30,951 nucleotides of DNA from a virus. The translations under genes and the position numbers were made by a program. The notes below the pieces were generated by a model. That model made no database searches and was not told the origin of the DNA. It saw nothing but the letters and a program-made list of their open reading frames with translations. The stretch is from IMG/VR virus record IMGVR_UViG_3300027822_000031, positions 1 through 30,951 of that record; one strand, written 5' to 3'. This document shows, piece by piece, positions 4,275 through 26,366 of the stretch (position 1 is its first letter; each line of letters opens with the position of its first letter).

Positions 4275-4643
4275 TTATTTTAAAATCAGGTAAACATTTA
4301 ACCCATAAATAACAAAAGACAATAACCATAAAGGAAAAGCCAATGTTCTTAATAAGATGTGTTCTTTTGCTCCACGATACCAAAGTTTCTTATTTCTAAG
4401 CCAGTTTAAAATGGTGTTAAAAAACAACCAACGACTTGAAGGAATTAATAAAGCTAAAAAGAAGTTATTATCAGTTAGTGCTAAAATCAATATCATTATT
4501 AAAAAATGAAACATCATATCAAATCCATGCCATTTACGGCTGTCTGAATTATCGGCTTTTTGATTCTTAATAATAAAGAAATCTGTAAAGGCTTCGACTA
4601 CATACATCAATCCTATTAGGATAATTATTGCTATTGGGTTCAT
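4275..4643 (-). CDS. polytopic membrane protein of the lysis region
   Basis: The 122-residue protein has about three membrane segments: residues 4-24, about 46-68, and 98-121. Between them lie conserved-looking polar patches (RKWHGFDMMFH near 36-46 and RWLFFN-N-LR near 72-84) that look like functional loops, not random spacers. The start overlaps the previous stop as TAATG. It could be a multi-helix holin, given the endolysin two genes on, or a phage membrane enzyme of unknown role. I do not recognise the family with confidence. Confidence 0.6.
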   Translation of the reverse strand: MNPIAIIILIGLMYVVEAFTDFFIIKNQKADNSDSRKWHGFDMMFHFLIMILILALTDNNFFLALLIPSSRWLFFNTILNWLRNKKLWYRGAKEHILLRTLAFPLWLLSFVIYGLNVYLILK

Positions 4644-5653
4644 TAAAATAGTTTTAAAACGTTAATTAAACTTTCAGGATAGTGCTTGAGTAAAGATTTT
4701 TGTAATAAAGGTTCAATACTTGCTTCTTTTTTTGCACACCAAATATGTGTATAACCATAGCTTTCAAGCTTCTGTTTGTCAAGATACTTGTCAAAATAAG
4801 TTACATCTACTTTTCTATGTTCCGCTATACAAGTCATTATGTATTGTTCAAAAATTATGCAATAAGAACCTTTGTTTTCAATACTATCCCAACCGTATTT
4901 GTTATACTTATGAAATACAAACTTTAAGGCTTCTTTTGTGTACTCTTGGATAGTTTCTAAATCTGTACCGCCAAATATCCCTAAACAATAGGCTTCTTTT
5001 GAGATTCCCCAGTTTGGCGGAAAATGTCTAAGCACTTTATTTGCGTGATTTATTTCAGGTAAATACGAATGTTCAAACCAGCCTTTATCTTCTGTATTCT
5101 GAACAAATATATCAGCTTCTTTTGCCCATTCAGGAAGTCCATCCCATAATATAGCATCATTATCTAAATGAACAAATGGTTTATCTTGAGCAGCGTATGC
5201 GTATATTTTACCTAAAGACCAAAAACCGTAATAGGCTTCTGGAATATCATCTAAAATAGTTTTGACACTTGTAAAAGGTAGGTTAAGTTTAGAAATTACT
5301 TTCCATCCTTCGCTATCCGTTACTAACTCAACTTCTTTAAAGTGTTCAGCCGATTTGTTTACTGATAGTGCCAAACTCATTAAGTGTGCTTTTGCACTAT
5401 ACCAATTTACTGCGTGTTCTAAAATCGTACCTTTATCTTGATTTGGTTTAGTCCACAAGGAATAAACTATCTTATCTATTTTTGCCATTTTATTACTTAT
5501 TAATTTTATTCCTATTCCAGCATCTTCATTGATGCTATTATCATTACAATCATTATCAATATTGGTACTGATTTCTGTTTGTTCTACTTCAGTATTATTT
5601 GGATTGAAATAACTCATAATGAATTTGATTATTTTTTTGATTGTTTCACACAT
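4643..5653 (-). CDS. glycosyltransferase-like protein (DUF6734-like), copy 1
   Basis: The 336-residue protein looks like a GT-A-fold glycosyltransferase relative. Residues 1-60 are a polar extension. The domain starts with SLWTKP at 65-70, and a DxD-like sugar-nucleotide/metal motif lies in FVHLDNDAILW (DND 164-166). FWSLGKIYAY (144-153) precedes it, and EQYIM and GYTHIWCAKK lie near the end. These blocks align by eye with the protein at 14709-15587. The gene sits between connector-like and lysis genes and is coupled to its upstream neighbour by TAATG. Possible roles are glycosylation of a virion protein or modification of host surface sugars. Neither is shown. An internal ATG at 5488 would remove the extension. 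Confidence 0.7.
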   Translation of the reverse strand: MCETIKKIIKFIMSYFNPNNTEVEQTEISTNIDNDCNDNSINEDAGIGIKLISNKMAKIDKIVYSLWTKPNQDKGTILEHAVNWYSAKAHLMSLALSVNKSAEHFKEVELVTDSEGWKVISKLNLPFTSVKTILDDIPEAYYGFWSLGKIYAYAAQDKPFVHLDNDAILWDGLPEWAKEADIFVQNTEDKGWFEHSYLPEINHANKVLRHFPPNWGISKEAYCLGIFGGTDLETIQEYTKEALKFVFHKYNKYGWDSIENKGSYCIIFEQYIMTCIAEHRKVDVTYFDKYLDKQKLESYGYTHIWCAKKEASIEPLLQKSLLKHYPESLINVLKLF

Positions 5654-5976
5654 TAGCCTAAAAATATTATACCAATACCACCACCACCAGCACTTGAATC
5701 GCTTGATTGACTTGGAACATATTCATCACAAGTTGCACAATTAGAATAAAGTAAATTTTCAACTGCATCAGCGAAACTTTCAATGTCTGGATATAAATAT
5801 CCGTTTACAATAATTTCGTTAATCTCTTTATTTCTAAACAATACATCAGTTGTATCGTTAATATTGATTAGTGTTACCGATTTTTTATCAGTTCCGGGCT
5901 TCAGTTGATAAACTTTAGCACAAGGGAATCCGTTTAGCTTAAATCGTGTTGCTGTGTAAGAATTAATTGTTGTCAT
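5653..5976 (-). CDS. small virion-region protein, glycine-rich C-terminus
   Basis: This 107-residue protein is not recognised. It is soluble, largely beta by appearance for residues 1-75, and ends in a serine/glycine-rich tail (SSAGGGG near 94-101) followed by a hydrophobic end (IGIIFLG). Two cysteines lie in NCATC. It overlaps its neighbours by one base on each side (TAATG both times), so it is translated within the head operon. A minor structural or decoration role is plausible from context only. Confidence 0.6.
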   Translation of the reverse strand: MTTINSYTATRFKLNGFPCAKVYQLKPGTDKKSVTLININDTTDVLFRNKEINEIIVNGYLYPDIESFADAVENLLYSNCATCDEYVPSQSSDSSAGGGGIGIIFLG

Positions 5977-6479
5977 TATCTTGAAATTTTATTGATTCTG
6001 AATTTTCGTCTTTTTGTTGTACAACCTGAATTCCATTTTGGATATAATTCAGTATGTCGGTTTAAGTATTTTTCTACTTGATACCACAATGTCATGGCAG
6101 TTTGTTGTCTTGCTTTGTAGCGTTCTTTTTTGTCGGTTCTGCTTACTTGTGTTCCGTCTTGGTATTGTTTCTCTACCATGCCAAAAGGTGTGTCAGTTTG
6201 TGAGCCGTGCAAAATATATCTTGCAGTTGCAAAATCAATCAATACTTTTTTAAGTCCTGGACTTGTGATTGTAACATCATCATAGACGTATTGTTTTTCA
6301 TTTAACAAATCTGTAAAATTGGTAGGGTCTGCTAGTATTGTAAAATAAAACGCTTCACCTAGCAATGGTAATAAATCAGTTACTTGTGCATCATCAATAA
6401 ATTGGTTTATTGTGATTTCTTTTACCGACTTAGATATTTGCCTTTGATTTAATATGTCATTCTTTGTTATTAGCCGCAT
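5976..6479 (-). CDS. putative head-tail connector/adaptor protein (DUF6712-like)
   Basis: The 167-residue protein is mainly helical. Its pattern recalls head-completion adaptors of Bacteroidetes phages: an N-terminal RLITKNDILNQRQIS segment, a DLLPLLGEAFY helix near 36-46, a helix near 75-92 (LKKVLIDFATARYILHG) and a late helix near 123-140 with ALWYQVEKYLN-type spacing. The basic C-terminus (TKRRKFRINKISR) could touch DNA at the portal. It follows the portal gene and overlaps it by 23 bases. The adaptor function is inferred from this neighbourhood and the fold-like pattern. Confidence 0.6.
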   Translation of the reverse strand: MRLITKNDILNQRQISKSVKEITINQFIDDAQVTDLLPLLGEAFYFTILADPTNFTDLLNEKQYVYDDVTITSPGLKKVLIDFATARYILHGSQTDTPFGMVEKQYQDGTQVSRTDKKERYKARQQTAMTLWYQVEKYLNRHTELYPKWNSGCTTKRRKFRINKISR

Positions 6480-7665
6480 CTTGAATTAATGGTATTATTT
6501 TTAATCCACCTTCAGGCATTTTAAAATCTTGAAAGTTTTTGAATAATGGATTTAATATTTCGTTTTCAATATTATCTCTATCTTCTTCGGTTTGTTCTTG
6601 GAAATATTTTTTAGCTTCAATTAATAAAGCTCCTGAATTTCCAAAGATTGAATTGTCATTATGATTTATCAATATTGAAGGAACGCCTAATGATTTTGAA
6701 ATGTTATTACCTACACTTGTTTCTGTATGTGCAAATAATTTATCATTGATGTTTGTATCAACGTTTATAAACTTCATCACCTTATCAATATCATCACCTT
6801 CAAATTCCATTTCTAAGTGTAACATTCCGTCCACATTATCAGAACCTACAAAAGTTTGCATTTGTTTACGGAAGTTATCCCTTTCGGTTGTGGCTTCTTG
6901 TTTTTCTGCTTGTTCTGCTTCTGACAATTCTGATGCTGGTTTTCTTAAATCACCATCAATCATTGGTGGTGTTACCACTATCTTTTTGCCAAAGAACCCT
7001 TTAATTAAAGAAGTGTTTTTAAATTGACCTACTCTATATTCAGAATCAGCATCGTTAAGCACATTGTCAATGTGTGCTAATGGATAGATAGTTTCTTCTG
7101 GATTGTAAAAGAAAACTTGTCCTTTGTACTTTTTGATACCACCAGCTTTTTGTATTTGTGTTTCAATCACTTTTTTATCAGGATTGTAAACATCAATAAC
7201 ATTTATTTTCTTTTTATCTACTTTTCCATTTTCCTTATTCCAATTATCATAAACAAGTATTTTTCCATTCCAGTCTTTATCATCTTTTTTACCGACCAAA
7301 CAATGTTTGTATGGTAATATTTTTAAACTATCAATTTTGTAATTAAGGTTATAGTTTACATGGATAAATACACCATTTTGGTAGGCATAAGAATTGGCTA
7401 AATTAAAAAGGAATTTGCGTAGGGATGTGCGATATTCTTTATTTATAATAACTCCATTAAGAACCTCACCAAATCCTTTACCAACAATATATTTTCTAAA
7501 TAACTTTGTAGCTGGTTTTGCCGTTGCTGAATTATTTATAATTCGTTCAACACGTTCAGCGTAGCTATTTTCATAACCATTGGTATAAACACCAAACGAC
7601 TTATCGAACTTGACAAGTCGTTTGGCTAATTCAAATAATTTAGCTGCTACAAATTTCGCTTGCAT
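6457..7665 (-). CDS. phage portal protein
   Basis: The 402-residue protein resembles the divergent portal family of Bacteroidetes phages. The portal forms the dodecameric ring for DNA entry and the head-tail joint. Visible signs are an N-terminal helical region ending near KYIVGKGFGEVLNG (about 62-75), a wing-like beta region, and the C-terminal stem/crown pattern: HTETSVGNNISKSLGVPSIL (about 315-335), FGNSGALLIEAKKYFQ (about 342-357), then a helix with E and D before NPLFKNFQDF. It lies after the capsid genes instead of next to TerL. It overlaps the following adaptor gene by 23 bases. Confidence 0.8.
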   Translation of the reverse strand: MQAKFVAAKLFELAKRLVKFDKSFGVYTNGYENSYAERVERIINNSATAKPATKLFRKYIVGKGFGEVLNGVIINKEYRTSLRKFLFNLANSYAYQNGVFIHVNYNLNYKIDSLKILPYKHCLVGKKDDKDWNGKILVYDNWNKENGKVDKKKINVIDVYNPDKKVIETQIQKAGGIKKYKGQVFFYNPEETIYPLAHIDNVLNDADSEYRVGQFKNTSLIKGFFGKKIVVTPPMIDGDLRKPASELSEAEQAEKQEATTERDNFRKQMQTFVGSDNVDGMLHLEMEFEGDDIDKVMKFINVDTNINDKLFAHTETSVGNNISKSLGVPSILINHNDNSIFGNSGALLIEAKKYFQEQTEEDRDNIENEILNPLFKNFQDFKMPEGGLKIIPLIQDAANNKE

Positions 7666-7676
7666 CTTTTACGTCA

Positions 7677-8189
7677 TTAAGATTGTTTTGCTACGATAAG
7701 TTCTGCTAATTGGGTTTTATTCCCTTTTGGGTCTTCAATACCTAAATCAGTTGCAATAGCAATCAATTCATTTTTAGTATTATCATCGATCAACTTCTGA
7801 ATATTTTCAGGTAATATCACTTCTTCCTTTTCTTCTGGAATATGGCTAAATAATTCTTCACCTCTTGGGTGGTTTTCTAACAATTCAGCACCATATTCAT
7901 CGGTCATGTTGTCATTATTTACATAAACAGAACTTCCAAAACCTAAAGGAATGTTTTGATACATTTTTTTAAGTACAAAACCGCTGTTTTTTTTGTCTTG
8001 ATTTTTCATAATCTGTATTTGTTTTATGAATTTTTGAAATTTAATTTTGAAATCTTTACATGAAGGGCAAACATCTTGATTAAACACCCTTTTGTAATCA
8101 CTTGCAAATGATGAAATCAAGCGGTTTCCGTTTTTATCTTTATCAGTTAAAACTTCTTCCGCTTTATATTTCAGCCATTTGTCATACAT
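7677..8189 (-). CDS. head-region protein with C-terminal SAP/HeH-like domain
   Basis: The 170-residue protein is of unknown function. Residues 1-65 are helical with a CPSCKDF motif near 41-47. The middle (about 85-120) is acidic and aromatic. Residues about 130-168 (LIDDNTKNELIAIATDLGI and onward) resemble a short helix-extended-helix SAP/HeH fold, which often binds nucleic acid and is common in head-tail genes of phages. It lies between the portal and a structural gene and joins the preceding gene by TAATG. A minor head or neck role is likely from position. Confidence 0.65.
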   Translation of the reverse strand: MYDKWLKYKAEEVLTDKDKNGNRLISSFASDYKRVFNQDVCPSCKDFKIKFQKFIKQIQIMKNQDKKNSGFVLKKMYQNIPLGFGSSVYVNNDNMTDEYGAELLENHPRGEELFSHIPEEKEEVILPENIQKLIDDNTKNELIAIATDLGIEDPKGNKTQLAELIVAKQS

Positions 8190-8785
8190 TATGCAGATGC
8201 AAACTTATTATTGAAAGCCGTTAAGCTTGTGGTATAGTCTGTATCTCTGTAAATGTGTGGTAGATATGGTTCTTTGAATCCTGAAGGAGTTGATAAAGTC
8301 ATAACTATTGTTCCATCATTTTCGTTTGAACCGTCTGTTAATTCAGATAATTCAAGTCCAAATTTCAATCCAAAGAATAAGAAAGCGTGTTTGTTTTCTT
8401 CACCCTTCCATTTTCTCTCAAGAACTGCATAAACTTTTGCGCCTGCAATGAATTTATTTACTTCATTTCTTGTTTGTTCGCTAGGGTCATAAACTCGAAT
8501 ACCAGCAATTGAATGAATGACACCATTATCTGAATCCTCTGGGGCTTCTAATGAATTAGTGTAATTCATAATTTGTTTGATACCTTGAACTTCATATCCT
8601 GTTTTAGCAGCTACTAATGCTAGTTGATTAATCAAAGATGAAGGAAGTGCTGCATCAAATGTAATTCCTGATGCAAGTAAATCGTGTTCATTTATTAAGA
8701 TTAATCGTTGTTCAATACCAGCTACTGGCTTGTTATCACATGAGCGTAAAATATCAGCACCCATTGTTGCACATACTTCTGACAT
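8189..8785 (-). CDS. putative virion structural protein
   Basis: The 198-residue protein is soluble and rich in beta-like segments, with no enzymatic motif. It follows the major capsid gene by 18 bases and is coupled to the next gene by TAATG. The size and position allow a head decoration, head-fibre or tail-tube role. The YRDTDYTTSLTAFNNKFA end is compatible with an assembly contact. I cannot assign a family by eye. It is probably abundant in the virion because it sits directly behind the capsid gene. Confidence 0.6.
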   Translation of the reverse strand: MSEVCATMGADILRSCDNKPVAGIEQRLILINEHDLLASGITFDAALPSSLINQLALVAAKTGYEVQGIKQIMNYTNSLEAPEDSDNGVIHSIAGIRVYDPSEQTRNEVNKFIAGAKVYAVLERKWKGEENKHAFLFFGLKFGLELSELTDGSNENDGTIVMTLSTPSGFKEPYLPHIYRDTDYTTSLTAFNNKFASA

Positions 8786-8803
8786 AATTTTTTGTTTTAA
8801 ATA

Positions 8804-9877
8804 TTAATATGCTGCTACTGCTAAGTAATCTTCTAAGAATTTGGCATCAAGCTTCATTCTAAAATCCATTACATTCACCTCGTGATATTTGTCATAAAAC
8901 GATTCAATTTTTTCTAAATCATCGGTGCTTACTGTACCTACTGGAATGTTTCCAGGAGTTGTCAATAATGCACGATGTGGAAGGTTCAATTTTGTACCAT
9001 TGTCTTGGTAGTTTTCAATGATAGAATCCCAATCGTAACGTGGTACAATTTTGATTTGTCTAAACACATCTTTTAGACCACCATTTTCAACATTATCAAG
9101 AGTAAATGCTAACGATTTATCTTCTTTATAATCTTGCCAGTTTTCAGCAACTTCACTTGTTACGTGAATATAAACAGGAAGTCCTTTTTTAGAAACCAAT
9201 TGTTTCAATCTTGGGTCTGCTTTTTTCCACATTTTACGGAAAAGATTAAAAGCGTAATCTTCTGGTAAATTTTGTTGTGCTGCATAGTTTGCACCATCAT
9301 TGGCATCAATCTTTACATAACGCTTTGAAGTCGTTGGAATATCAATCGTTAAGATTTGTTTCCAAAAACCATCAAGCATATTAAAGAAACCTAAATCAGT
9401 TCCATTTGTAAAGTTTCCACCGTTATCAATTGTTTCAGCAGCTTCATCACCAAACCAGATGATACGTTGTATCATTTCTTTCATGGCATCAGCAATACGC
9501 ATTAGGACAACACCTAATTCTTCACTATCAATTTTGTCGTAAAAATCAGGATTGATTTTCTTAACTTTTTTGAATAGTTTAAGTAATGGATTGCTGTCAG
9601 TAGAACAATGCTCAAATCTATCACCTATAAGTTTAGGCGACCATTTTTTTTCTGACAATGGAATTTTATTTCCATTAGCATCAGGTTTACATTGTAAGAT
9701 TTTCTTACCTACTAATCCTAATGTACCAATAAAAGGAATTTGTGTATCCCATTCAATACCTGAATGAATATCATGGTGTTCTGCAATTTCAGAAGTTTCT
9801 AAAACATACTCATAAACCGCTTGGGATATTTGTTGTGCTTCTTCTGTGTTGATTGTTAAGTCTTCTACATTAAACAT
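8804..9877 (-). CDS. major capsid protein
   Basis: The 357-residue protein has the size and pattern of an HK97-fold capsid protein of Bacteroidetes phages: a charged N-arm, a hydrophobic IPFIGTLGLVGKKIL stretch near 48-62, a long spine-like helix with EELGVVLMRIADAMKEMIQRIIWFGDE (cited in parts; about 119-145), and a C-terminal P/A-domain region with LLTTPGNIPVGT near 302-313. It directly follows the protease-scaffold gene by 19 bases, the standard protease-capsid order. There is no delta domain at the N-terminus; the scaffold function seems to reside in the protease gene. Confidence 0.82.
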   Translation of the reverse strand: MFNVEDLTINTEEAQQISQAVYEYVLETSEIAEHHDIHSGIEWDTQIPFIGTLGLVGKKILQCKPDANGNKIPLSEKKWSPKLIGDRFEHCSTDSNPLLKLFKKVKKINPDFYDKIDSEELGVVLMRIADAMKEMIQRIIWFGDEAAETIDNGGNFTNGTDLGFFNMLDGFWKQILTIDIPTTSKRYVKIDANDGANYAAQQNLPEDYAFNLFRKMWKKADPRLKQLVSKKGLPVYIHVTSEVAENWQDYKEDKSLAFTLDNVENGGLKDVFRQIKIVPRYDWDSIIENYQDNGTKLNLPHRALLTTPGNIPVGTVSTDDLEKIESFYDKYHEVNVMDFRMKLDAKFLEDYLAVAAY

Positions 9878-9896
9878 AATTCGTAGTTTTTAAATA

Positions 9897-10433
9897 TTAA
9901 TCTTTTTTAAATAAATTTCTGGTTTTATCATCATCAATTTCTGGTTTTTTATTTCCGTCAATTTTTGGTTTGTAATTAAATGATGAAGAAACTTCTTTCT
10001 TTACATCTTCAATAACAACTTTAAGATTTTTGATACTATCAATAGCCGTATCAACATCACCTTTAAGTTTTAAGTTTTCTGCTTTTAAACTTTCGTTTTC
10101 AGTTTTCAATGCTTCCACTTCTTCGCTATCATCTTCTTCGGTTTCTGTTTTGATTTCGGTTAATTCACCGCTTACAAAAACATAAGTGTCACCGCTTGGC
10201 ATAACATATTCACCATCGGCTGGGTTTCCGTCAATATTTGCTTTATCACCTACTTGTGGTTCGGCATCAGTTTCTACGTCTGGGAAATCTATTTCCGTTC
10301 CGTTAGCATCTTGCACTAATAGTGCTTTTGGATTTTCATTGCCTGTTAATCTGTTCAAAATTTTGTTTAGTGTTTCACCTAAACCATTGAACTTTTTATC
10401 GGCTTCTTTTTTTGTTAAAACTTCTTTAGACAT
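9897..10433 (-). CDS. possible nested scaffold protein (internal start in protease gene)
   Basis: An in-frame ATG at 10433 (MSKEVLTKKEADKKF) sits exactly where the protease domain ends and the acidic coiled-coil part begins. Translation there would give a 178-residue free scaffold protein. The arrangement is known from lambda C/Nu3 and related phages. No Shine-Dalgarno sequence decides the matter, because these organisms rarely use one. This is an inference from domain layout. Confidence 0.35.
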   Translation of the reverse strand: MSKEVLTKKEADKKFNGLGETLNKILNRLTGNENPKALLVQDANGTEIDFPDVETDAEPQVGDKANIDGNPADGEYVMPSGDTYVFVSGELTEIKTETEEDDSEEVEALKTENESLKAENLKLKGDVDTAIDSIKNLKVVIEDVKKEVSSSFNYKPKIDGNKKPEIDDDKTRNLFKKD

Positions 10434-11051
10434 GTTTTTCTTATTTATGGTTCTACTTTTTGTATTTAGAGTTCTTAATGAATTAAATATTAATGAGTTT
10501 TCAGAGGAGTAAACATTTTCAATTTCTGTATAAAAGCCGTAATCTAAGCACTCGTCAAGTGTTACATCTCTACTTTCATTCATTAATTCAATTGCTTTGT
10601 CTTTTGTAATAGATGTTCTTTCAGCATACAGTTCAGCAATTTCATTATCTACATTTTCAAGCACTTCGTATGTTTTTTTAGCTTCGTTTTTATCTGCTGC
10701 TTCTACCCATAGCCAGGCATTGTGAACAAATGGTTTTAGATATTTACTTCCTATTCTTTTGTCTGCCGCTAATAAAAGGATGACACCACTTGATGCACAA
10801 AAGCCATCAGCACGAGATGTTAAAGTGATTTTCTTTTCATCTTTTACTCTTAGCAACTTATTATACATTGAAAATGCAGTAGTAGTGCAACCCCCAAATG
10901 TGTGTATGTTATAAATCAATTCATCACCTTCCTTTAAATCTAAACTATCAATAGATGTGTTTAAATCAGAACGGTCGTATTCAGAGCCATCATTCCAATA
11001 TTTAAAAGGAACAATATCTCCATAGATATTGATTTCGTGTGTGGTGTTCAT
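9897..11051 (-). CDS. ClpP-type prohead protease with fused scaffold-like domain
   Basis: The 384-residue protein has two parts. Residues about 5-180 are a ClpP/S14-like serine protease with a likely triad S87 (DGFCASSGV), H110 (FVHNAW) and D162 (ESRDVTLDE). Residues about 205-384 are polar, acidic and contain a strong coiled coil (about 305-350), as in capsid scaffolds. An internal ATG (M207, base 10433) could give a separate 178-residue scaffold, as Nu3 is made from inside lambda gene C. The gene precedes the capsid gene. Its own start lies behind a short divergent intergenic region shared with the + strand gene at 11125. Confidence 0.85.
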   Translation of the reverse strand: MNTTHEINIYGDIVPFKYWNDGSEYDRSDLNTSIDSLDLKEGDELIYNIHTFGGCTTTAFSMYNKLLRVKDEKKITLTSRADGFCASSGVILLLAADKRIGSKYLKPFVHNAWLWVEAADKNEAKKTYEVLENVDNEIAELYAERTSITKDKAIELMNESRDVTLDECLDYGFYTEIENVYSSENSLIFNSLRTLNTKSRTINKKNMSKEVLTKKEADKKFNGLGETLNKILNRLTGNENPKALLVQDANGTEIDFPDVETDAEPQVGDKANIDGNPADGEYVMPSGDTYVFVSGELTEIKTETEEDDSEEVEALKTENESLKAENLKLKGDVDTAIDSIKNLKVVIEDVKKEVSSSFNYKPKIDGNKKPEIDDDKTRNLFKKD

Positions 11052-11058
11052 ACAAAGA

Positions 11059-11066
11059 CAAAATTA
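11059..11066 (-). promoter_or_regulatory. possible -7 box before the protease gene
   Basis: On the minus strand TAATTTTG fits TAnnTTTG seven bases before the ATG of the protease gene. A good -33 TTG at the right distance is missing, and the leader would be almost absent. It is offered only as a candidate head-gene promoter. Confidence 0.3.
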
Positions 11067-11080
11067 CGTTCAAGTATCAG

Positions 11081-11108
11081 TTACTAACTGCCACTATTTT
11101 GGTAGTAA
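11081..11108. repeat. nested inverted repeats in divergent intergenic region
   Basis: TTACTA (11081-11086) and TAGTAA (11103-11108) are perfect inverted arms. Inside them ACTGCCA (11087-11093) and TGGTAGT (11100-11106) pair with a single G-T wobble around a 6-nt loop. The repeats lie between two oppositely directed -7-like boxes. They could be an operator for the two divergent genes. Confidence 0.45.
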
Positions 11109-11121
11109 TTTTGTATATTTG
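11106..11121 (+). promoter_or_regulatory. two overlapping-position -7 boxes for the + strand gene
   Basis: TAATTTTG (11106-11113) and TATATTTG (11114-11121) both match TAnnTTTG just before the ATG at 11125. The first would give a very short leader, the second a leaderless or start-internal transcript. A clear -33 TTG is not seen. Confidence 0.4.
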
Positions 11122-11124
11122 CGT

Positions 11125-11418
11125 ATGGTTTTATTTGTAGTTTTATTAATAATTGTAGGTGTTGTCTTAATAATTGGTTGGACTAAACTAATTAATATGA
11201 TATTTAACCCATTGATTAAACGTTCTGAAAAAAAGCAAATTCAAACAGATAATATTGATAACCCTTATATTGAAGCACATTTAATAAGACGTAGAAATGA
11301 TAATGATTACGAAGAATACTTGAAATGGCTTGATGATAATGGTGGTGGTTTACCTATCAATAAAATCTTAACTCGTGAAGAATGGGAATTCAAACAACAA
11401 TTAGATAATGCTTTTTAA
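11125..11418 (+). CDS. small membrane protein on the opposite strand of the late operon
   Basis: I choose the ATG at 11125 (97 residues), because the signal-like helix starts there (MVLFVVLLIIVGVVLIIGW). The longer reading from 11029 is antisense to the protease start. After the N-terminal helix (2-19) follows a basic/polar cytosolic part with R-K-rich and acidic stretches and a C-terminal TREEWEFKQQ. It is the only + strand gene besides the integrase. It is divergent from the protease gene and convergent with the HTH gene, with overlapping stops. This suggests a moron-type gene expressed independently of the late operon, possibly in the lysogen. Function is unknown. Confidence 0.7.
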   Translation: MVLFVVLLIIVGVVLIIGWTKLINMIFNPLIKRSEKKQIQTDNIDNPYIEAHLIRRRNDNDYEEYLKWLDDNGGGLPINKILTREEWEFKQQLDNAF

Positions 11419-11645
11419 TTACTACTTTTCATTTTTCGGATTATCTTATAAATAGTGCTTTCAGGTGTTTTTGTGTCAATTGATGTATTAGTAACCGCCT
11501 GGCTTGTCTTATTTCCTTTTCTTTTTTCTCGTAAATACGTTTCGTAAATAAACTTATGCCCTATTATGGTAATAGAAATAATCCCTTGCTTAACTAAATC
11601 GCTAAGTAGGTCTTTATCATCTAATATTTGTAAGTATTTATACAT
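11415..11645 (-). CDS. small HTH-like DNA-binding protein
   Basis: The 76-residue protein has an N-terminal helical part (LLSDLVKQGIISITIIGHKF) and a C-terminal part from about 42 on (NKTSQAVTNTSIDTKTPEST followed by IYKIIRKMK) that reads like a helix-turn-helix with a basic recognition helix. It lies between the zinc-ribbon gene (3 bases away) and the oppositely directed membrane gene, beside the possible operator at 11081-11108. A regulatory role on that region is a reasonable guess. The HTH call is by eye only. Confidence 0.6.
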   Translation of the reverse strand: MYKYLQILDDKDLLSDLVKQGIISITIIGHKFIYETYLREKRKGNKTSQAVTNTSIDTKTPESTIYKIIRKMKSSN

Positions 11646-11648
11646 TAA

Positions 11649-11894
11649 TTACCAATTCCCTAAAGGGCACTTTTCGTTTTTACTTCTTAATTTTGTTGAT
11701 AGTGGACACCCACATTCTTTACATTTTAAACCTTGAATTTCTTTGATAGAATAGTCAGGTAACAAAGTTTCATACGTTCCAATTATGGCACTATGACACT
11801 TTTTACAATGTTCAGCCCTTGCCTTTGCAAAATCAATCCGTTCTTTTTTTAGATAGGATTTCCAACCGTCTATTATGTTTGTGATGCCTCCCAT
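11649..11894 (-). CDS. small zinc-ribbon protein
   Basis: The 81-residue protein has cysteine pairs suited to bind zinc: C30-x2-C33-H34 and C58-x2-C61-x-C63, with another C76 in CPLGNW. The N-terminal half is helical and basic (WKSYLKKERIDFAKARAEHC). Similar small Cys-rich proteins ending in a CPLGKW-like motif occur beside tail genes in many phages, but their job is not established. The start overlaps the tape measure stop as TAATG, so it is co-translated with tail genes and may act in tail assembly. Confidence 0.7.
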   Translation of the reverse strand: MGGITNIIDGWKSYLKKERIDFAKARAEHCKKCHSAIIGTYETLLPDYSIKEIQGLKCKECGCPLSTKLRSKNEKCPLGNW

Positions 11895-14704
11895 TAACTT
11901 ATGTTTGCACCGTCCACAACTTCGCTATAACTTGTTTGTCCATCGTTTATATCTGTAACCGCAACAATTGGTGAAGGCATTTCTTGTAATGCTTCTGAAA
12001 AAGCTTCTTTCATTTGTTCACTACTTGCACCATTATTATTAACAACACTTCTTTGAACAACACCGCCAGAAGCAAATACATTAGGTCTGCTAACAATTCC
12101 ACCATCACGATAGGTGTCGTTAAATTCCATAAATAAACGTGCTGCATTTCTATTCATTACACCGATTACCTCGCCTTGTTCTGCTTCAAATGCAGTACCA
12201 TCTTCGCCTGTAAATCTTGTTCCACCTTGTGAATGACGTTTACCACCAATATTAAACAAAGCTCCTTTTTCTGCTTTAGGTACTTTTGTGGAAGTAATTT
12301 TCTTAACATTTGCAACACCTGATGCAACTGCAGCAGCGGCGGCGATTGCACCTAACACCGGACCCACAATTGCAATGCCCGCAAGTGAACTATACGCTTT
12401 TGTTGCTGCTTGATATGTAGCAATAGTTGTTTCTGCAATTGCCGCTGCTTTTCCAGCTGCTGTATGTTCTCCCAATAAGGAAGCTAGATTTCCAAATGTT
12501 TGTGATGCAATCGCAAGTATAAAATCTTGTTTTGATTTTTGTATGTCCTTTTCTACTTTGGCGTATTTGGCTTCAATCTTAGATTTATCAGCACTCACCT
12601 TTTCAGCATTGGCTAACTCAATTTCTTTTTGTCGATCAAGGTCTGATTGTTTTAATGCTAACTGTGCTAAATAGTTTTCTTCAGCCAAAACCATGTCATT
12701 TTCAAAGTCAATAGCTTTTTGTTCTTTTCTGGCTTCTTCACGTGCTAATTCTTCTTCTTCTCTTATTGCACGATTTTCATCTTCTAAATCTTTCTTAGCT
12801 TGAAGGTATTCATTATCCTTTTCAAGTTTTGCAGTATTGAATTCTTCTTGAGATAAAATCTTTGCTTCAAATTGTTCTTGAAGTTTTTCTAACTCAATGG
12901 CGTTTATAGCATCTAAGCCTGTTAATCTTGCTTGATAGATTTGTTCATTACTTAGTTGTTCAGTAAGAAGTTTATTATCTAGTAATGCCTTATCGTTTTG
13001 TAATTCTCTATCAAGATTTTGTATTGCAAGTTCCGCCTGTTTCCCTAAGAAATCTTTTTTGATATTTAAGACTTCCGTTTCATATTTGGTCTGGGAAATC
13101 TTTTTCGCTTTTAATTCTTCTTCAAGAAGTTTTAAGCGTTTATCTTTTATAGTTGTTTCAAACTTTAATTGTTCTGATAATGTTTTTGATTTGCTTTGAT
13201 TTTCTGCAACGAATAATGCAAGCCTTTGGGTGCTTTCTTTTAAAGCGTTGTCTATTGCTTTTTTTGCTAAAGCGTTTTGTTCTTTTTGATATGCACTTTT
13301 TGCACTTATGAATTTTAATTCCGTTGCTTTTTGTTCTTTGTCTTTGTTGATTAGTTCGGCTTTTAACTCATTAAGGGCTTGTAAGTCTTTACGTCCTGAA
13401 TCGTTTTGTGATTGTTGTAATTCTTCACTTTGTATTTTCAAAAGAAGTATTTCCTTTTCTGATGTTGCTAATTCTTTGGAAATTCTCAAAGCTTCATCTG
13501 CTGCTGCTTTTCTTTCATTAGTTGTTTTGGTAGTATCTTTTGCAATTAGTTCTTGTTCTTTGATTAAGTCTAAAGATTTGGCACGTGTTAAAACTATTTC
13601 AGCTTCTTTTTGCTCAATTGCTTCACTCATTCGTTGGATTTCTTGCTGTGCCTTTGCTGCTTCTTTGATGTCGCCAACTGCTTCACCAAATGCCGCTGGT
13701 AGATTTTTAGCCCTTTCAATTGTTCTTTCTACTGCTGGAATTAATTCTTTTTCTAATTGGTCTTTATAAGCTTTCAGACTTTCAGCTTCGGATTTATCGC
13801 CTGTTAATTCGTTCCATTTTATACGCAATGTTGTTACACCAATAAGTAAACTGTTTAGTGTAATTGTCCAACTATCTTTTAGTTGACCAAAAACAGAAGT
13901 TCCTAATTTCTGAACGACACCAATAATACCTTGAAATGCCCCTTTAAGTGGTGCTAAGGCTCGATTAACTTTATCAATTCCTGATTGTGTTGATGCAAAC
14001 CCAGCAACTAATGAACCAATAAGTACAACGATTGCACCGATACCAGTAGCAATCAAAGCATACTTAAATATCTTTAATGCTTTACTTCCTGCACCTACTG
14101 ATTTAGTAGAAGCGTTTTGTGCAACTGTTTGAGACTTTAGACTATCTCTATTTGCCATTCCTTTTTGAGTTACATCACCCAAATTGACACCCATTATGTT
14201 TACTTTTTTTAGTGCTGATATTACACCTTCTTCGTACTTTCCTATTCCAATTTTTTGTTGTTCTAATCCTGACACATTGCTTTCAATGTATTCATTGTTC
14301 TTGTCAATTTTAGAATTGATTTCAGTTATAGCATCTTTACCAGCTTTTGTCTTTCCGTTTATTTCATTTCGGATTGCTAATAGCTTCTTGTTACTTTCTC
14401 TTGACTGAATAACACTTACATTCTCTCTTGATAGTTCATTTGAAAGGTTTTTAACACCAGTCATATTTTCGGCTAGTGATTTTTTATTTACATTGTAAGT
14501 TGTGTTTAGTTTTTTTAGTTCTGCATCACTTTTAACAAATGTTTTCACTTGTTCATCAGTAGCCGTAGCAAGATTACCAGTTTCTTTTTTTAGTTGCTTC
14601 TGGGATTCTTTTAATACGTTGATTTGTTTTATCAACTTTGCATTATCTTCTTGCATTTTCTTGGTGTTCAACTCCAATTCTGCAATAATTATCTTTTCAG
14701 CCAT
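11894..14704 (-). CDS. tail tape measure protein
   Basis: At 936 residues this is the longest protein of the window. It has extended helical and coiled-coil regions rich in E, K, Q and L (about 1-150 and 340-740), a membrane-type segment at about 212-236 (KIFKYALIATGIGAIVVLIG), and an alanine/glycine-rich hydrophobic part near 760-830. The C-terminus has the GALFNIGGKRHSQGGTRF / EAEQGEVIGVMNR pattern often seen at the end of Bacteroidetes tape measures. The protein sets tail length and helps DNA entry. With the common rule of 0.15 nm per residue the tail would be near 140 nm. It follows a glycosyltransferase-like gene instead of the usual frameshifted chaperone pair. Confidence 0.88.
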   Translation of the reverse strand: MAEKIIIAELELNTKKMQEDNAKLIKQINVLKESQKQLKKETGNLATATDEQVKTFVKSDAELKKLNTTYNVNKKSLAENMTGVKNLSNELSRENVSVIQSRESNKKLLAIRNEINGKTKAGKDAITEINSKIDKNNEYIESNVSGLEQQKIGIGKYEEGVISALKKVNIMGVNLGDVTQKGMANRDSLKSQTVAQNASTKSVGAGSKALKIFKYALIATGIGAIVVLIGSLVAGFASTQSGIDKVNRALAPLKGAFQGIIGVVQKLGTSVFGQLKDSWTITLNSLLIGVTTLRIKWNELTGDKSEAESLKAYKDQLEKELIPAVERTIERAKNLPAAFGEAVGDIKEAAKAQQEIQRMSEAIEQKEAEIVLTRAKSLDLIKEQELIAKDTTKTTNERKAAADEALRISKELATSEKEILLLKIQSEELQQSQNDSGRKDLQALNELKAELINKDKEQKATELKFISAKSAYQKEQNALAKKAIDNALKESTQRLALFVAENQSKSKTLSEQLKFETTIKDKRLKLLEEELKAKKISQTKYETEVLNIKKDFLGKQAELAIQNLDRELQNDKALLDNKLLTEQLSNEQIYQARLTGLDAINAIELEKLQEQFEAKILSQEEFNTAKLEKDNEYLQAKKDLEDENRAIREEEELAREEARKEQKAIDFENDMVLAEENYLAQLALKQSDLDRQKEIELANAEKVSADKSKIEAKYAKVEKDIQKSKQDFILAIASQTFGNLASLLGEHTAAGKAAAIAETTIATYQAATKAYSSLAGIAIVGPVLGAIAAAAAVASGVANVKKITSTKVPKAEKGALFNIGGKRHSQGGTRFTGEDGTAFEAEQGEVIGVMNRNAARLFMEFNDTYRDGGIVSRPNVFASGGVVQRSVVNNNGASSEQMKEAFSEALQEMPSPIVAVTDINDGQTSYSEVVDGANIS

Positions 14705-14708
14705 TGTA

Positions 14709-15587
14709 TTAATTTAATTTATTCGTGATTTTTTCAATCCTATTGAAATATCTTTTGTCTTGCTGTTTAATTTTCTCTTTAATCGCTGGAATAAGTGCGT
14801 ACTTTGTCGAACCCCAAGCGTGTGCATAACCTATGCGGTTTGCTATTGCGTTCATTTCGGTAACTGTGCCTATTTCATCATCTGTATCAGAATTTAAAGG
14901 AAGTACAAACTTTATTTTTGCTTTCATTAGTTCGGCATAACCAGCAAGGAAATATTGTTCTATTACTATATTTGGTTCAAACTTAGGATTGTGTTTTAAT
15001 TCGTTCATAAAATATTCTGATGCTTTCAGTTGTTCAATGATCGAGTAATAACCTTGTATGTATTCATCTTTGATTTTCTGATTATTAAAACCTAGCACAC
15101 CACAATTCAAAGCGTGTTTTAATTCCGTGTTAAATCCTTCAGGTGGATTTGTTAATGCTATTGGGTAATGGTGCAATGTGTCAAAATAGTGTTGCATAAA
15201 TATTCCTAGACGTTCTTCACCTTGAACAATGATGTCGTGATTTTTAAAATCTAAAACCCTTTTTATTTGTGGTTTTTTCAAAAAAACATCACCGTCAATA
15301 TGTATGCTTCCTATTGGTTCATTTTCAAGTGCAATCATTTTGCCTTTACTCCAAAATCTTGAAGGCTCGTTATCAAGTGCATCAAGTGTTAATTTGATTT
15401 CATCATATCCTAAATCACCGTAGAATTTAAGTCCTAAAATATCTGTGTGTAATGTTATTTTCTTTGCTATTCTTTTAGCATTCATAACAGAGTAAGCGTA
15501 CAACCAAATGTTGCTTTTTAATTGTCCTGTAATTTGCCAGCGGTTCTCAACCATCGGCTTCGTCCAAACTGAATGTATTAATTTCAT
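14709..15587 (-). CDS. glycosyltransferase-like protein (DUF6734-like), copy 2
   Basis: The 292-residue protein shares ordered blocks with the protein at 4643-5653: SVWTKP at 6-11 (SLWTKP there), FWSKGKMIALENEP near 79-91, the DxD-like motif in SIHIDGDVFL (DGD 98-100), EQYFLAGYAE, and GYAHAWGSTK near the C-terminus. This fits a GT-A-type glycosyltransferase relative. It lies between the tail proteins and the tape measure, and starts by an ATGA overlap with the small membrane gene upstream. Modification of tail proteins is a natural idea, untested. Compared with copy 1 it lacks the polar N-terminal extension. Confidence 0.72.
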   Translation of the reverse strand: MKLIHSVWTKPMVENRWQITGQLKSNIWLYAYSVMNAKRIAKKITLHTDILGLKFYGDLGYDEIKLTLDALDNEPSRFWSKGKMIALENEPIGSIHIDGDVFLKKPQIKRVLDFKNHDIIVQGEERLGIFMQHYFDTLHHYPIALTNPPEGFNTELKHALNCGVLGFNNQKIKDEYIQGYYSIIEQLKASEYFMNELKHNPKFEPNIVIEQYFLAGYAELMKAKIKFVLPLNSDTDDEIGTVTEMNAIANRIGYAHAWGSTKYALIPAIKEKIKQQDKRYFNRIEKITNKLN

Positions 15588-15715
15588 AATGTACCTATCA
15601 TATCTGATTTAACTTGATAACCTTCTTCTATTTCTGTGGGTTTCTTTTTAGGAATTACACATAGTAGAATTACTATTATTACTATTCCGATTATTATTTT
15701 TAGTATCATATTCAT
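15584..15715 (-). CDS. 43-residue single-helix membrane protein
   Basis: This short gene starts with ATG at 15715 and ends with TGA overlapping the next ATG (ATGA at 15587-15584). The protein is a hydrophobic helix (residues about 3-22, with IIIGIVIIVILLCVI), then a KKKPTEIEE polar tail. The gene fills the 132-base gap between the tail gene and the glycosyltransferase-like gene, and the tight spacing on both sides supports it being real. It may anchor or accompany the next protein. Function is unknown. Confidence 0.65.
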   Translation of the reverse strand: MNMILKIIIGIVIIVILLCVIPKKKPTEIEEGYQVKSDMIGTL

Positions 15716-15719
15716 TGTA

Positions 15720-17363
15720 TTAAATTGTTCCAATCATTTGTGAAGTTTCTGAATAACCGCCATACACTCCGTACACACTTTGCGTTGATGTTGGTATTCT
15801 TACTAATTCAACTTCTGTTAATTTTCCAGCCTTATAATTTTTGACTTTGTTTAAGTAGAATTCACCGCCTAATTGTTTGATGTAAATTTTTTTGAAAAAA
15901 TCAAGGTTGTAAATGTCAATTGTGTTCAAATTGATGATTGCATTGATTACTTGTGTATGATTTAGAAGCTTTATAAACTCTTGATAATAGTTATCAATGT
16001 AATCTTGGAAGTTTATTTCTGGGTATGTTGCTAAATAAGCGTAGTTCTTAGTGAATGTTTCATAATTTCCATCAGGTAGTCTAAACTTGTATTTAAAATC
16101 AAAGTTTAATTTTGTTCTGTAAAACAATTGTGGGACAAAACTTTCAGTATAAGATTCAATACTACCATCTTCATCTGTTTTGTATTCGTCCATATCTAAC
16201 ATCCAGTAATTATATTCGCCACCACTACTCGAATGAACAAAAAAGCGACCCCAAGAGTAATCGTTACTTTCTTTCCATTTTGCATATTTTGGCTTTGAAA
16301 AGTCTGAATTAATTATCGTTTTTTCAATACCTAAGTTTTTGTTTAGAATATTAAAGCTTCCTTGTAATTCATTTGCTAGACCAAGAAAATCACTCCATTG
16401 AACAACATCATTTGAATATTTAAAGTTATTGAGTATAGCATAGTTTGATAATTTATAAATCTCTTTTTTAAATCCATGAAACTTATTAGACCAATTTACT
16501 AAACCACCGTTAAGAATAAGGTCGTCAATGTTCTTAAAATGTACTGTCTTAGTTCTTTCATTTATTTTAATAAGCAATCCGAAACGATACATTATTTCAG
16601 AAAGAAATTTATTTAATCGCATTATTGGTGCAACATTTTTTATGTCAAATTCACTTCCGTAATCAATATCAAAACTTGATACAGTTTTTGAAGCACTTAC
16701 TAATAGATTGTTAAAATTTTCATTTGTAGTTAATGGATTTACAACTGAATAACCTAAGAAATTAAATATGTTGTTAAATAAATCTTTTGCGTAAAATTGT
16801 GGTGTTATCCTTTCGGTGTATAATTCAAGATAAGGAAAGCCCGGATTTGTTTGATTGGCTTCTAAACTTCCCATTCCTTTAGTTTCTTCGTTGTAATGTA
16901 GTAGTGTGAATATGAATAGATTATCATTTAAGACATTAGAAGCTATTCCAGCAGTACTGTATGTTATAATTGTTTCAGGGAACACATCTTGTAAAGTGTA
17001 TTCTTTTAATTTTTCAAAGAATGTTTTTTCGTTTCCGTAAATATTAATAGAATAGTAGTTACTTCCTGAATCTGATGCAACTGCATATCCATTGCTTAAT
17101 AACTCAATACCATTTTCTACTATTCTGGCTTGTGGTGTTCCGTATGGAAATTGTTCCGAATCTAAATCTACTTCGTGATATTTACCAATAAAAGACAAAC
17201 CATTAAACAACCTGATGTTGTTAGGCGTTTTCGGCACTTTAAAACGATTGGTGTAACTCGTTTGTCTTGTGTCTAAATTACCAATGTCGTTGATTTGAAA
17301 AGTCTGTGCTACACTTTTATCAACTAAATCTAAACGGTTGTCATTTATAAATACTTCTGTCAT
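15720..17363 (-). CDS. putative tail/baseplate protein
   Basis: The 547-residue protein shows the style of a large conserved tail protein of Bacteroidetes phages. The N-terminus (VFINDNRLDLVDKSVAQTFQ, then a TRQTSYTNRFKVPKTPNN-like segment near 33-50) resembles proteins placed beside the tape measure. The remainder is rich in aromatic residues and beta-like segments, with no catalytic motif. A role as distal tail or hub component is likely from size and position. It follows the 356-residue tail gene, with TAATG overlap, and precedes the small membrane gene. Confidence 0.65.
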   Translation of the reverse strand: MTEVFINDNRLDLVDKSVAQTFQINDIGNLDTRQTSYTNRFKVPKTPNNIRLFNGLSFIGKYHEVDLDSEQFPYGTPQARIVENGIELLSNGYAVASDSGSNYYSINIYGNEKTFFEKLKEYTLQDVFPETIITYSTAGIASNVLNDNLFIFTLLHYNEETKGMGSLEANQTNPGFPYLELYTERITPQFYAKDLFNNIFNFLGYSVVNPLTTNENFNNLLVSASKTVSSFDIDYGSEFDIKNVAPIMRLNKFLSEIMYRFGLLIKINERTKTVHFKNIDDLILNGGLVNWSNKFHGFKKEIYKLSNYAILNNFKYSNDVVQWSDFLGLANELQGSFNILNKNLGIEKTIINSDFSKPKYAKWKESNDYSWGRFFVHSSSGGEYNYWMLDMDEYKTDEDGSIESYTESFVPQLFYRTKLNFDFKYKFRLPDGNYETFTKNYAYLATYPEINFQDYIDNYYQEFIKLLNHTQVINAIINLNTIDIYNLDFFKKIYIKQLGGEFYLNKVKNYKAGKLTEVELVRIPTSTQSVYGVYGGYSETSQMIGTI

Positions 17364-24534: not shown

Positions 24535-25308
24535 TTAATAATCAAAACTTAATTGATTGTTTTGATAGTTTGTTATTAATATTTCAGTTCGTTTGTTCTT
24601 TATGTTTTGTCTTTCTTTTAAATAAATTACATTCATTTTGTAGTCAGAAGCGAAGTCTAAAATCTTTTCACTATCAAATTCACTCATTGCTGATTGGATT
24701 CCAGAATTTGCCATTATTTCAAAACAATCTTTAGTGTCCTTTTCAGTCCATTTAGGTACTTTATAAAAATGGTCTGTATCTAAATAGATAGGGTCTAAGT
24801 AAACAAATGATTGAGATTTTTTAAGTACGGTTTCACTAAAGGAAATCTTATCAATTACATTTCTAAAATCATCATTTGTAATCTTAACATCTTGTAAGTG
24901 TAGGAATGTTGGTTCTATATTTTTAATTAAATTGTTTTTGGTGTTGTCTAAGCCTAATCTTAATGTGTCGCCTTTTCCTAAGTATGTAAAATTTGATAGT
25001 AGTAAAAATCTAATTGCTTTTTTTAATGGTTCAGTTTCTGTATTATGTTTCCAATGTTTTAAAAGTCCTTCAGTAATTGGCATTAATCTAATTTGATTAA
25101 TTAGTTCGTCTTTTTGATCAAGTAGAATTTTATACAAATTTGTAACATCATCATCCAAATCATTAAGTATTGCATACTTCGGTTTTGGTAGATAGAAGTA
25201 AGAACCACCTGCACCGAAAAATAATTCAATACGCATTTTGTGTGCTGGAAAGTATCTATACAGATAATCCTTCATGTTTCTTTTATTGCCTAATCTTGTT
25301 AATACCAT
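24535..25308 (-). CDS. N6-adenine DNA methyltransferase, D12 class
   Basis: The 257-residue enzyme should transfer a methyl group from S-adenosylmethionine to adenine. Motif I appears as FFGAGGS (30-36), LNDLDDDVTNLY near 48-59 binds the cofactor, and catalytic motif IV is DPIY (172-175) instead of DPPY. The order fits Dam-like class alpha enzymes. No restriction endonuclease is seen next to it, so it is an orphan, probably protecting phage DNA. It follows the cytosine methyltransferase by two bases. The DPIY variant may still be active. Confidence 0.85.
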   Translation of the reverse strand: MVLTRLGNKRNMKDYLYRYFPAHKMRIELFFGAGGSYFYLPKPKYAILNDLDDDVTNLYKILLDQKDELINQIRLMPITEGLLKHWKHNTETEPLKKAIRFLLLSNFTYLGKGDTLRLGLDNTKNNLIKNIEPTFLHLQDVKITNDDFRNVIDKISFSETVLKKSQSFVYLDPIYLDTDHFYKVPKWTEKDTKDCFEIMANSGIQSAMSEFDSEKILDFASDYKMNVIYLKERQNIKNKRTEILITNYQNNQLSFDY

Positions 25309-25310
25309 TG

Positions 25311-26366
25311 TTAAAATTTTGCTAATGCTAATGATTTGTTCTTTTGATTGGTGTTCTTTTGATATTCAGGAATAAATGAAAGTATGTGTTCTATTATTGG
25401 TAGGGTCCAGCCATCACCTAACAAACTTGCTGCCTGGTTTCTTGTAAGAATGTTTGTATATCCATCCGGAAAACCTTGAAGTCTTTCTAATTCTATTTGT
25501 GTTAAGGGTCTTATCTTAAAAGCCCCTTTATATTCATAGGCTATTTTTGTTCTTCCTGCATGGCTTTCTGTTAATGTTGTGTGTTTTCCTTTATCAGAAA
25601 ATACACGATTCTGCATAAATGGTTGTTGTCCGTTACTTTGTTTATTTGGGTTTATTTGATATACCACATTCCCAAAACCAGTAGTTTTATAACGTCTATA
25701 CATTTTATCCATATCAGTATTTAATCTACTTTCAGATTCTAATATTGCACGTGCTTTATCTCTATCAGTATATCCATGTTCTAAAACATCCTTTAAAAGA
25801 ATCCCTTTATCTTTTGGTTGCTTTATATCTACAACCACATCAAACATTGTGTTTTTTGTTGAAATATTTGTCCAATACCAACGCTTTCTTAATTGTGCTG
25901 TTACTAATGCACTATCAATCATCTGTGGATATATTTCTAGTGCTTCACTCATAATACCTATTTCTTTTCTTGAAGCTGAATAAACATTCTCTTGAAGGAA
26001 TAATACATTTGGATTTAATTTTTTTACATGATTTAGTATTTCTATAAATTGCCAAAACAACCCACTATTTGAACCATTTATCCCTTTCATTTTTCCTGCA
26101 ATACTTAAATCTTTACAGGGGCTACCACTACCAATAAAATCAATACTTTTCCAATCAATATCCCATTCTTTCCAATTAAGTATATTACCTAACTGAATGG
26201 TGCCGGGAAAATGATGTTGTGTTAATTCATTTGCAAATGGTTTTATTTCACTTGAGTAATACTTATTTATTGGCACACCTAAATTCTCAAAGGCTTGCCT
26301 TAATGTATTCATGCCATTGAACAATGATAGTACGTTAATTCCTGTATTTTGTTTGTAAACTTTCAC
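25311..26366 (-). CDS. cytosine-5 DNA methyltransferase
   Basis: The 351-residue enzyme shows motif I VLSLFNGMNT (12-21), the catalytic loop GSGSPCKDLS with C84, motif VI QENV (125-128), motif VIII QLRKR (158-162), and C-terminal motifs LQGFPDGYT and LLGDGWTLPIIEHIL. The target-recognition part is short, near 210-280. It starts at GTG 26366, two bases after the upstream stop; no nearby ATG exists. The short target domain and NGMNT variant are of the kind seen in phage and Dnmt3-like enzymes. With the adenine enzyme it may shield phage DNA from host restriction. Confidence 0.88.
   Translation of the reverse strand: MKVYKQNTGINVLSLFNGMNTLRQAFENLGVPINKYYSSEIKPFANELTQHHFPGTIQLGNILNWKEWDIDWKSIDFIGSGSPCKDLSIAGKMKGINGSNSGLFWQFIEILNHVKKLNPNVLFLQENVYSASRKEIGIMSEALEIYPQMIDSALVTAQLRKRWYWTNISTKNTMFDVVVDIKQPKDKGILLKDVLEHGYTDRDKARAILESESRLNTDMDKMYRRYKTTGFGNVVYQINPNKQSNGQQPFMQNRVFSDKGKHTTLTESHAGRTKIAYEYKGAFKIRPLTQIELERLQGFPDGYTNILTRNQAASLLGDGWTLPIIEHILSFIPEYQKNTNQKNKSLALAKF

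Follow-up and report, generated by a model that had tools for sequence, protein, structure and literature searches.

It is likely that the DUF6734 family comprises GT8-like glycosyltransferases that recognize C-terminal tags and glycosylate the tail of the protein encoded just upstream, a reading suggested by sequence comparison and structure modelling. We set it out for two genes of IMG/VR virus record IMGVR_UViG_3300027822_000031, whose full 30,951 bases form the window analysed here. The window contains a siphophage-like prophage operon with recognizable terminase, Clp-type protease, tape-measure and portal genes. Both genes of interest, GT1 (4643..5653, 336 residues) and GT2 (14709..15587, 292 residues), are read from the minus strand, and the plus strand at their coordinates is full of stops. 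The gene directly before each of them ends in a C-terminal tag, in which [IVLM]-G and hydrophobic residues come after a stretch rich in Tyr, Gly and Ser.

A preliminary description of this DNA had noted two glycosyltransferase-like proteins with five shared blocks, and both minus-strand frames indeed carry these in the same order: S-L-WTKP (residues 65-70), FWSLGK (144-149), HLDND (162-166), EQY (269-271) and GYTHIW (300-305) in GT1, and S-V-WTKP (6-11), FWSKGK (78-83), HIDGD (96-100), EQY (210-212) and GYAHAW (253-258) in GT2. The two proteins are homologous, with 24% identity over 278 columns in BLASTP (E = 2e-13), and both belong to Pfam PF20508 (DUF6734), a family without assigned function. 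GT1 scores 181.5 bits (E = 3e-53; profile positions 2-285 of 286), with its catalytic motif residues conserved, and GT2 scores 88.8 bits (E = 5e-25; positions 1-285), against a Pfam cut-off of 27; all 48 of 48 aligned relatives match DUF6734 over nearly full length. GT1 has an N-terminal extension of 55 residues that is common to GT1 and its L003 relative only. DUF6734 had no NCBIfam match and our literature search found no paper on it; tblastn against INPHARED phage records gave no match to GT1 or GT2, and searching PDB sequences by phmmer and by profile returned nothing relevant to either protein. Elsewhere in the family, DUF6734 genes in two bacterial genomes (L022, L034) are interrupted by several in-frame stops, and one phage contig carries five consecutive DUF6734-like genes (L094 57-4710).

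An AlphaFold2 model of GT2 built with 48 relatives reached a mean pLDDT of 82.9 including a disordered tether, the glycosyltransferase domain lying mostly above 90; a first model from a three-sequence alignment (pLDDT 50.7) was too poor for use. Foldseek comparison of the model with the PDB, a check that the preliminary description had called for, favours a GT-A fold with a conserved DxD: XXYLT1 and the UGGT catalytic domain come first, then LgtC and glycogenin, with a probability of ~1 for the top matches and modest TM-scores, below about 0.5. Nucleotidyltransferases rank after the glycosyltransferases, and in the viral library most of the matches that have a name are glycosyltransferases. 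Residues K83, D98, D100, E210 and H256 are invariant in 95/95 DUF6734 members, and H96, Q211, W79, K262 and G163 are nearly so. The motif order K - DxD - NxG - (E/D)Q - HxxGxxK is presumably that of GT8-like retaining enzymes; at the C-terminal HxxGxxK positions, H occurs in 95/95, K in 91/95 and G in 67/95 members. DUF6734 thus resembles the GT8/GT24 GT-A enzymes (LgtC, glycogenin, XXYLT1, UGGT) in its top fold matches and motif order, but differs from GT8 in the modest TM-scores, in the absence of PW after HxxGxxK and in sequence profiles, hhalign yielding no signal against a small alignment of six GT8 members, among them E. coli WaaJ and WaaO, and none towards DXD-sugar glycosyltransferases. 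Because sequence profiles alone show no link, we name these enzymes GT8-like and not GT8. GT1 and GT2 are probably DUF6734 protein glycosyltransferases of GT-A fold, predicted to be metal-dependent and retaining. Phage assembly chaperones, as is generally known, are likewise encoded as one dedicated partner beside each target, and the DUF6734 proteins could be inactive GT-fold proteins that assist assembly by binding virion proteins at their C-terminal tails. As a pure chaperone would not need the DxD, K, E and H that a catalyst is expected to have and that are invariant across phage, injection-system and peptide clades, we consider this highly improbable.

Both genes lie within the virion operon, next to structural genes. 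According to the preliminary description, one neighbours tail genes and the other connector genes; one gene at each site stands, but it is 4643-5653 that is connector-side and 14709-15587 that belongs to the tail module. GT1 follows the portal/connector genes and a 107-residue gene and precedes the lysis genes, with the portal gene (6457..7665, minus strand; PHROG 11226, E = 6e-56) upstream of this small gene and GT1. GT2 is located between a 547-residue tail-module gene and the tape-measure gene (11894..14704, minus strand; PHROG 3336, E = 5e-18), which comes directly after it.

The 107-residue protein between the connector genes and GT1 (carrier 1; 5653..5976, minus strand) ends in SSDSSAGGGGIGIIFLG and has no family match in Pfam and PHROG searches; in leave-one-out scoring, 0/973 control C-termini score as high as its tag (5656..5706, minus strand). 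The 547-residue tail-module protein (carrier 2; 15720..17363, minus strand) ends in GGYSETSQMIGTI; its tag GYSETSQMIGTI (15723..15758, minus strand) is likewise equalled by 0/973 controls, and the protein is homologous to a tagged carrier in L050. Between carrier 2 and GT2 we found an unannotated 43-residue ORF (15584..15715, minus strand) that ends in YQVKSDMIGTL, with a tag score that 0.2% of controls reach. Its N-terminal half is hydrophobic and an ATGA overlap joins it to the GT2 start; no relative of it was found, and from its sequence it may encode a membrane peptide. These three are the only ORFs in the window that reach the tag threshold. In addition, residues 40-52 of the GT1 extension (5498..5536, minus strand), read directly from the sequence, form the tag-like SINEDAGIGIKLI, which is conserved in L003 as SINEDAGIGVNLI. 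The 107-residue protein would accordingly be the predicted substrate of GT1, the 547-residue protein and the 43-residue peptide those of GT2, and the N-terminal extension of GT1 may be a further target of GT1 itself.

Beyond the window, the pairing of tag and enzyme is met again across many unrelated phages, with the tag upstream of >30 DUF6734 genes. The tagged carriers fall into 18 families that are unrelated after removal of the last 25 residues, and we therefore rejected descent of the tag from the C-terminus of a single tail-protein family. Recognizable carriers are a tail protein (L051), a virion structural protein (L057) and a DUF6519 protein (L035). A loose regular expression finds the motif in 34/83 upstream genes, a set that includes clades without the tag, compared with 131/982 controls (p = 4e-9). 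In leave-one-out tests with 19 representatives, the fraction of the 973 control C-termini that equalled the representative's score ranged from 0 to 1.2% (median 0); discovery and testing of the motif used one and the same set of loci. When every ORF of at least 40 residues in all loci was scanned (5037 distinct C-termini), the best 32 of 5037 were all located upstream of a DUF6734 gene on the same strand, the first false matches ranking after them; these 32 include loci outside model building (L072, L083, L158, L164). The tails in L050, L060 and L063 read as tags by eye and are under the threshold. An exact DNA pattern of the GT1-type tag had 0 matches in viral contigs. A similar pattern gave 2 matches in 396 Dokdonia-order genomes, namely an already known tagged gene next to its glycosyltransferase and a site that is not a gene end; as many matches (2) in this order came from the reversed control pattern, and hence that test has little power. 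In two loci (L066 9328-9864; L071 4028-4788), two similar small tagged proteins stand in tandem before a single glycosyltransferase gene.

In the family tree, GT1 groups with L003, L099, L100 and the first enzyme of L008, whereas the second enzyme of L008 and L050-L053 group with GT2. The two window enzymes thus fall into different deep clades of this FastTree phylogeny, whose deep forks are weakly supported, and each has nearer relatives in other genomes. A recent duplication inside the phage was rejected for this reason, and GT1 and GT2 were probably acquired separately: the homology implied by the earlier term paralogues is upheld, while simple paralogy within the phage is not.

The type of tag tracks the enzyme clade, with IG-x-x-L-L accompanying GT1-like and IG-[TEA]-[IL] accompanying GT2-like enzymes. 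GT1-like tags are GGGGIGIIFLG (window), NAGIGLNLL (L003), GGIGLNLLD (L020), AGVGVDLLD (L021) and QGVGVHLLN (L008); GT2-like tags are SQMIGTI (window), LNMIGTL (L050), RIVGEI (L052), GIIGEI (L053) and QTIGAL (L008). Other clades have tags of their own, GIGESLL in the L058-L063 group, GGAIGVDLL in L064 and SYGDAIGHGWV in L077. The Dokdonia MAG contig L008 carries three consecutive DUF6734 genes, among them one GT1-type and one GT2-type enzyme; the two carriers there share 61% identity along 90 residues, as far as GCD..YY, and then diverge into GT1-type and GT2-type tags, each standing before the matching enzyme type. Across 150 pairs of unrelated carriers with different enzymes, tag-core similarity follows glycosyltransferase identity (rho 0.39, permutation p = 0.001) with the tag cores anchored by hand; with automatic anchoring, by which some tags are misplaced, the covariation is weaker (p = 0.048). 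Modification of virion proteins by one enzyme per operon site, as suggested in the preliminary description, is likely, and the cognate C-terminal tags seen in the upstream sequences are its best support. Serotype-converting and DNA-modifying phage glycosyltransferases are well known, both generally and from PMC12619734, and the enzymes might modify host surface polysaccharide, excluding other phages, or phage DNA, the tag being only the structural C-terminus of tail proteins. Such a tag would hardly be expected on 18 unrelated carriers including a 43-residue membrane peptide, next to DUF6734 genes and not on tail genes at large, or in types that follow the enzyme clade, which makes this explanation unlikely.

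For glycosylation of the upstream-encoded carrier, we propose that each enzyme would bind the hydrophobic IG-phi end of its carrier and glycosylate a Tyr or Ser/Thr hydroxyl within the flexible Tyr/Gly/Ser/Asn/Asp-rich stretch before it, with the terminal IG-phi part deciding the cognate enzyme. Tyr/Gly/Ser-rich residues precede the tag cores, and a Tyr, Ser or Thr lies at most 12 residues before I-G in every representative; as the tail in L003 is without Tyr, one universal acceptor residue is unlikely. Glycosylation itself, the residue and sugar used, and exposure of the carriers in the virion are what we infer from this pattern. In a tether model, the natural tag was joined to GT2 by translating the intergenic TAA codons as Gly, which serves the modelling and implies no read-through; AlphaFold2 did not place the tethered tag, so that the argument for tag recognition comes entirely from co-occurrence and covariation. 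The tag could instead be a docking peptide that brings the enzyme into the virion or the assembling tail, the acceptor then being either the host surface or a different virion protein. Docking peptides are, as generally known, often C-terminal and hydrophobic like the tag, and the copy in the GT1 extension fits an assembly role as well as self-modification. Yet a Tyr/Ser-rich, acceptor-like stretch accompanies the tag in nearly every carrier, and the neighbour of the leader-peptide clade (below) is itself a short peptide and a natural acceptor; we rate docking as quite unlikely.

A bacterial DUF6734 clade adjoins short Cys/Tyr-rich peptides with leaders of the double-glycine type (L014, L026, L027, L030, L033; L194 10452-10628; L195 9404-9643; L197 7141-7296), and because of this neighbourhood a protein substrate is supported as the class of acceptor. 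Glycocin-type (SunS-like) glycosyltransferases are similarly encoded beside a small peptide substrate, a likeness in gene arrangement; unlike glycocin leader peptides, the predicted substrates in the window are virion proteins with C-terminal tags. Several DUF6734 clades show no such tag, and among them the injection-system and leader-peptide clades have no tag of the described type next to their enzymes. A wider proposition, to which we give an even chance, is that of a modular code: several portable C-terminal tag types, each with its own DUF6734 glycosyltransferase, would move as cassettes among phage structural genes that are unrelated to each other, relatives of the enzymes would serve contractile injection systems and double-glycine-leader peptides, and GT1, itself tagged, may be self-modified.

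Phage virion glycosylation is already known; what we propose here is the GT-A assignment of DUF6734 and its pairing with tags. In mycobacteriophages, which encode glycosyltransferases, capsid and tail-tube subunits are reported to carry glycans at their C-termini (Freeman et al. 2023, as cited in PMC12619734). That system resembles the one predicted for DUF6734 in its phage-encoded enzymes and C-terminal glycans, and differs in that the passage of PMC12619734 consulted describes no portable tag on unrelated carriers. In the literature searched, which covers few subscription papers, we found no description of a portable tag that cognate enzymes read on unrelated virion proteins. If our reading is correct, it assigns a function to an uncharacterized family and predicts, for many uncultured phages, the virion proteins that bear glycans and the sites concerned; it would also offer short genetic tags that, with their cognate enzymes, direct protein glycosylation to chosen sites in bacteria. 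With two enzymes and different tags in one genome, tag specificity is directly testable by tail swaps.

Some further observations concern gene neighbourhoods. Tandem DUF6734 genes occur in an extracellular contractile injection locus (L190 8431-13731; also L118-L132), the injection-locus genes sitting between the CIS tape-measure gene and the eCIS core-domain gene. The DUF6734 loci with leader peptides resemble peptide natural-product loci. In the window, adenine and cytosine DNA methyltransferase genes are adjacent (24535-26366), with no evident restriction partner beside them. At the window start, an integrase gene directly adjoins a tRNA-Ser gene (40-1400), which suggests that the tRNA contains the attachment site of a prophage.
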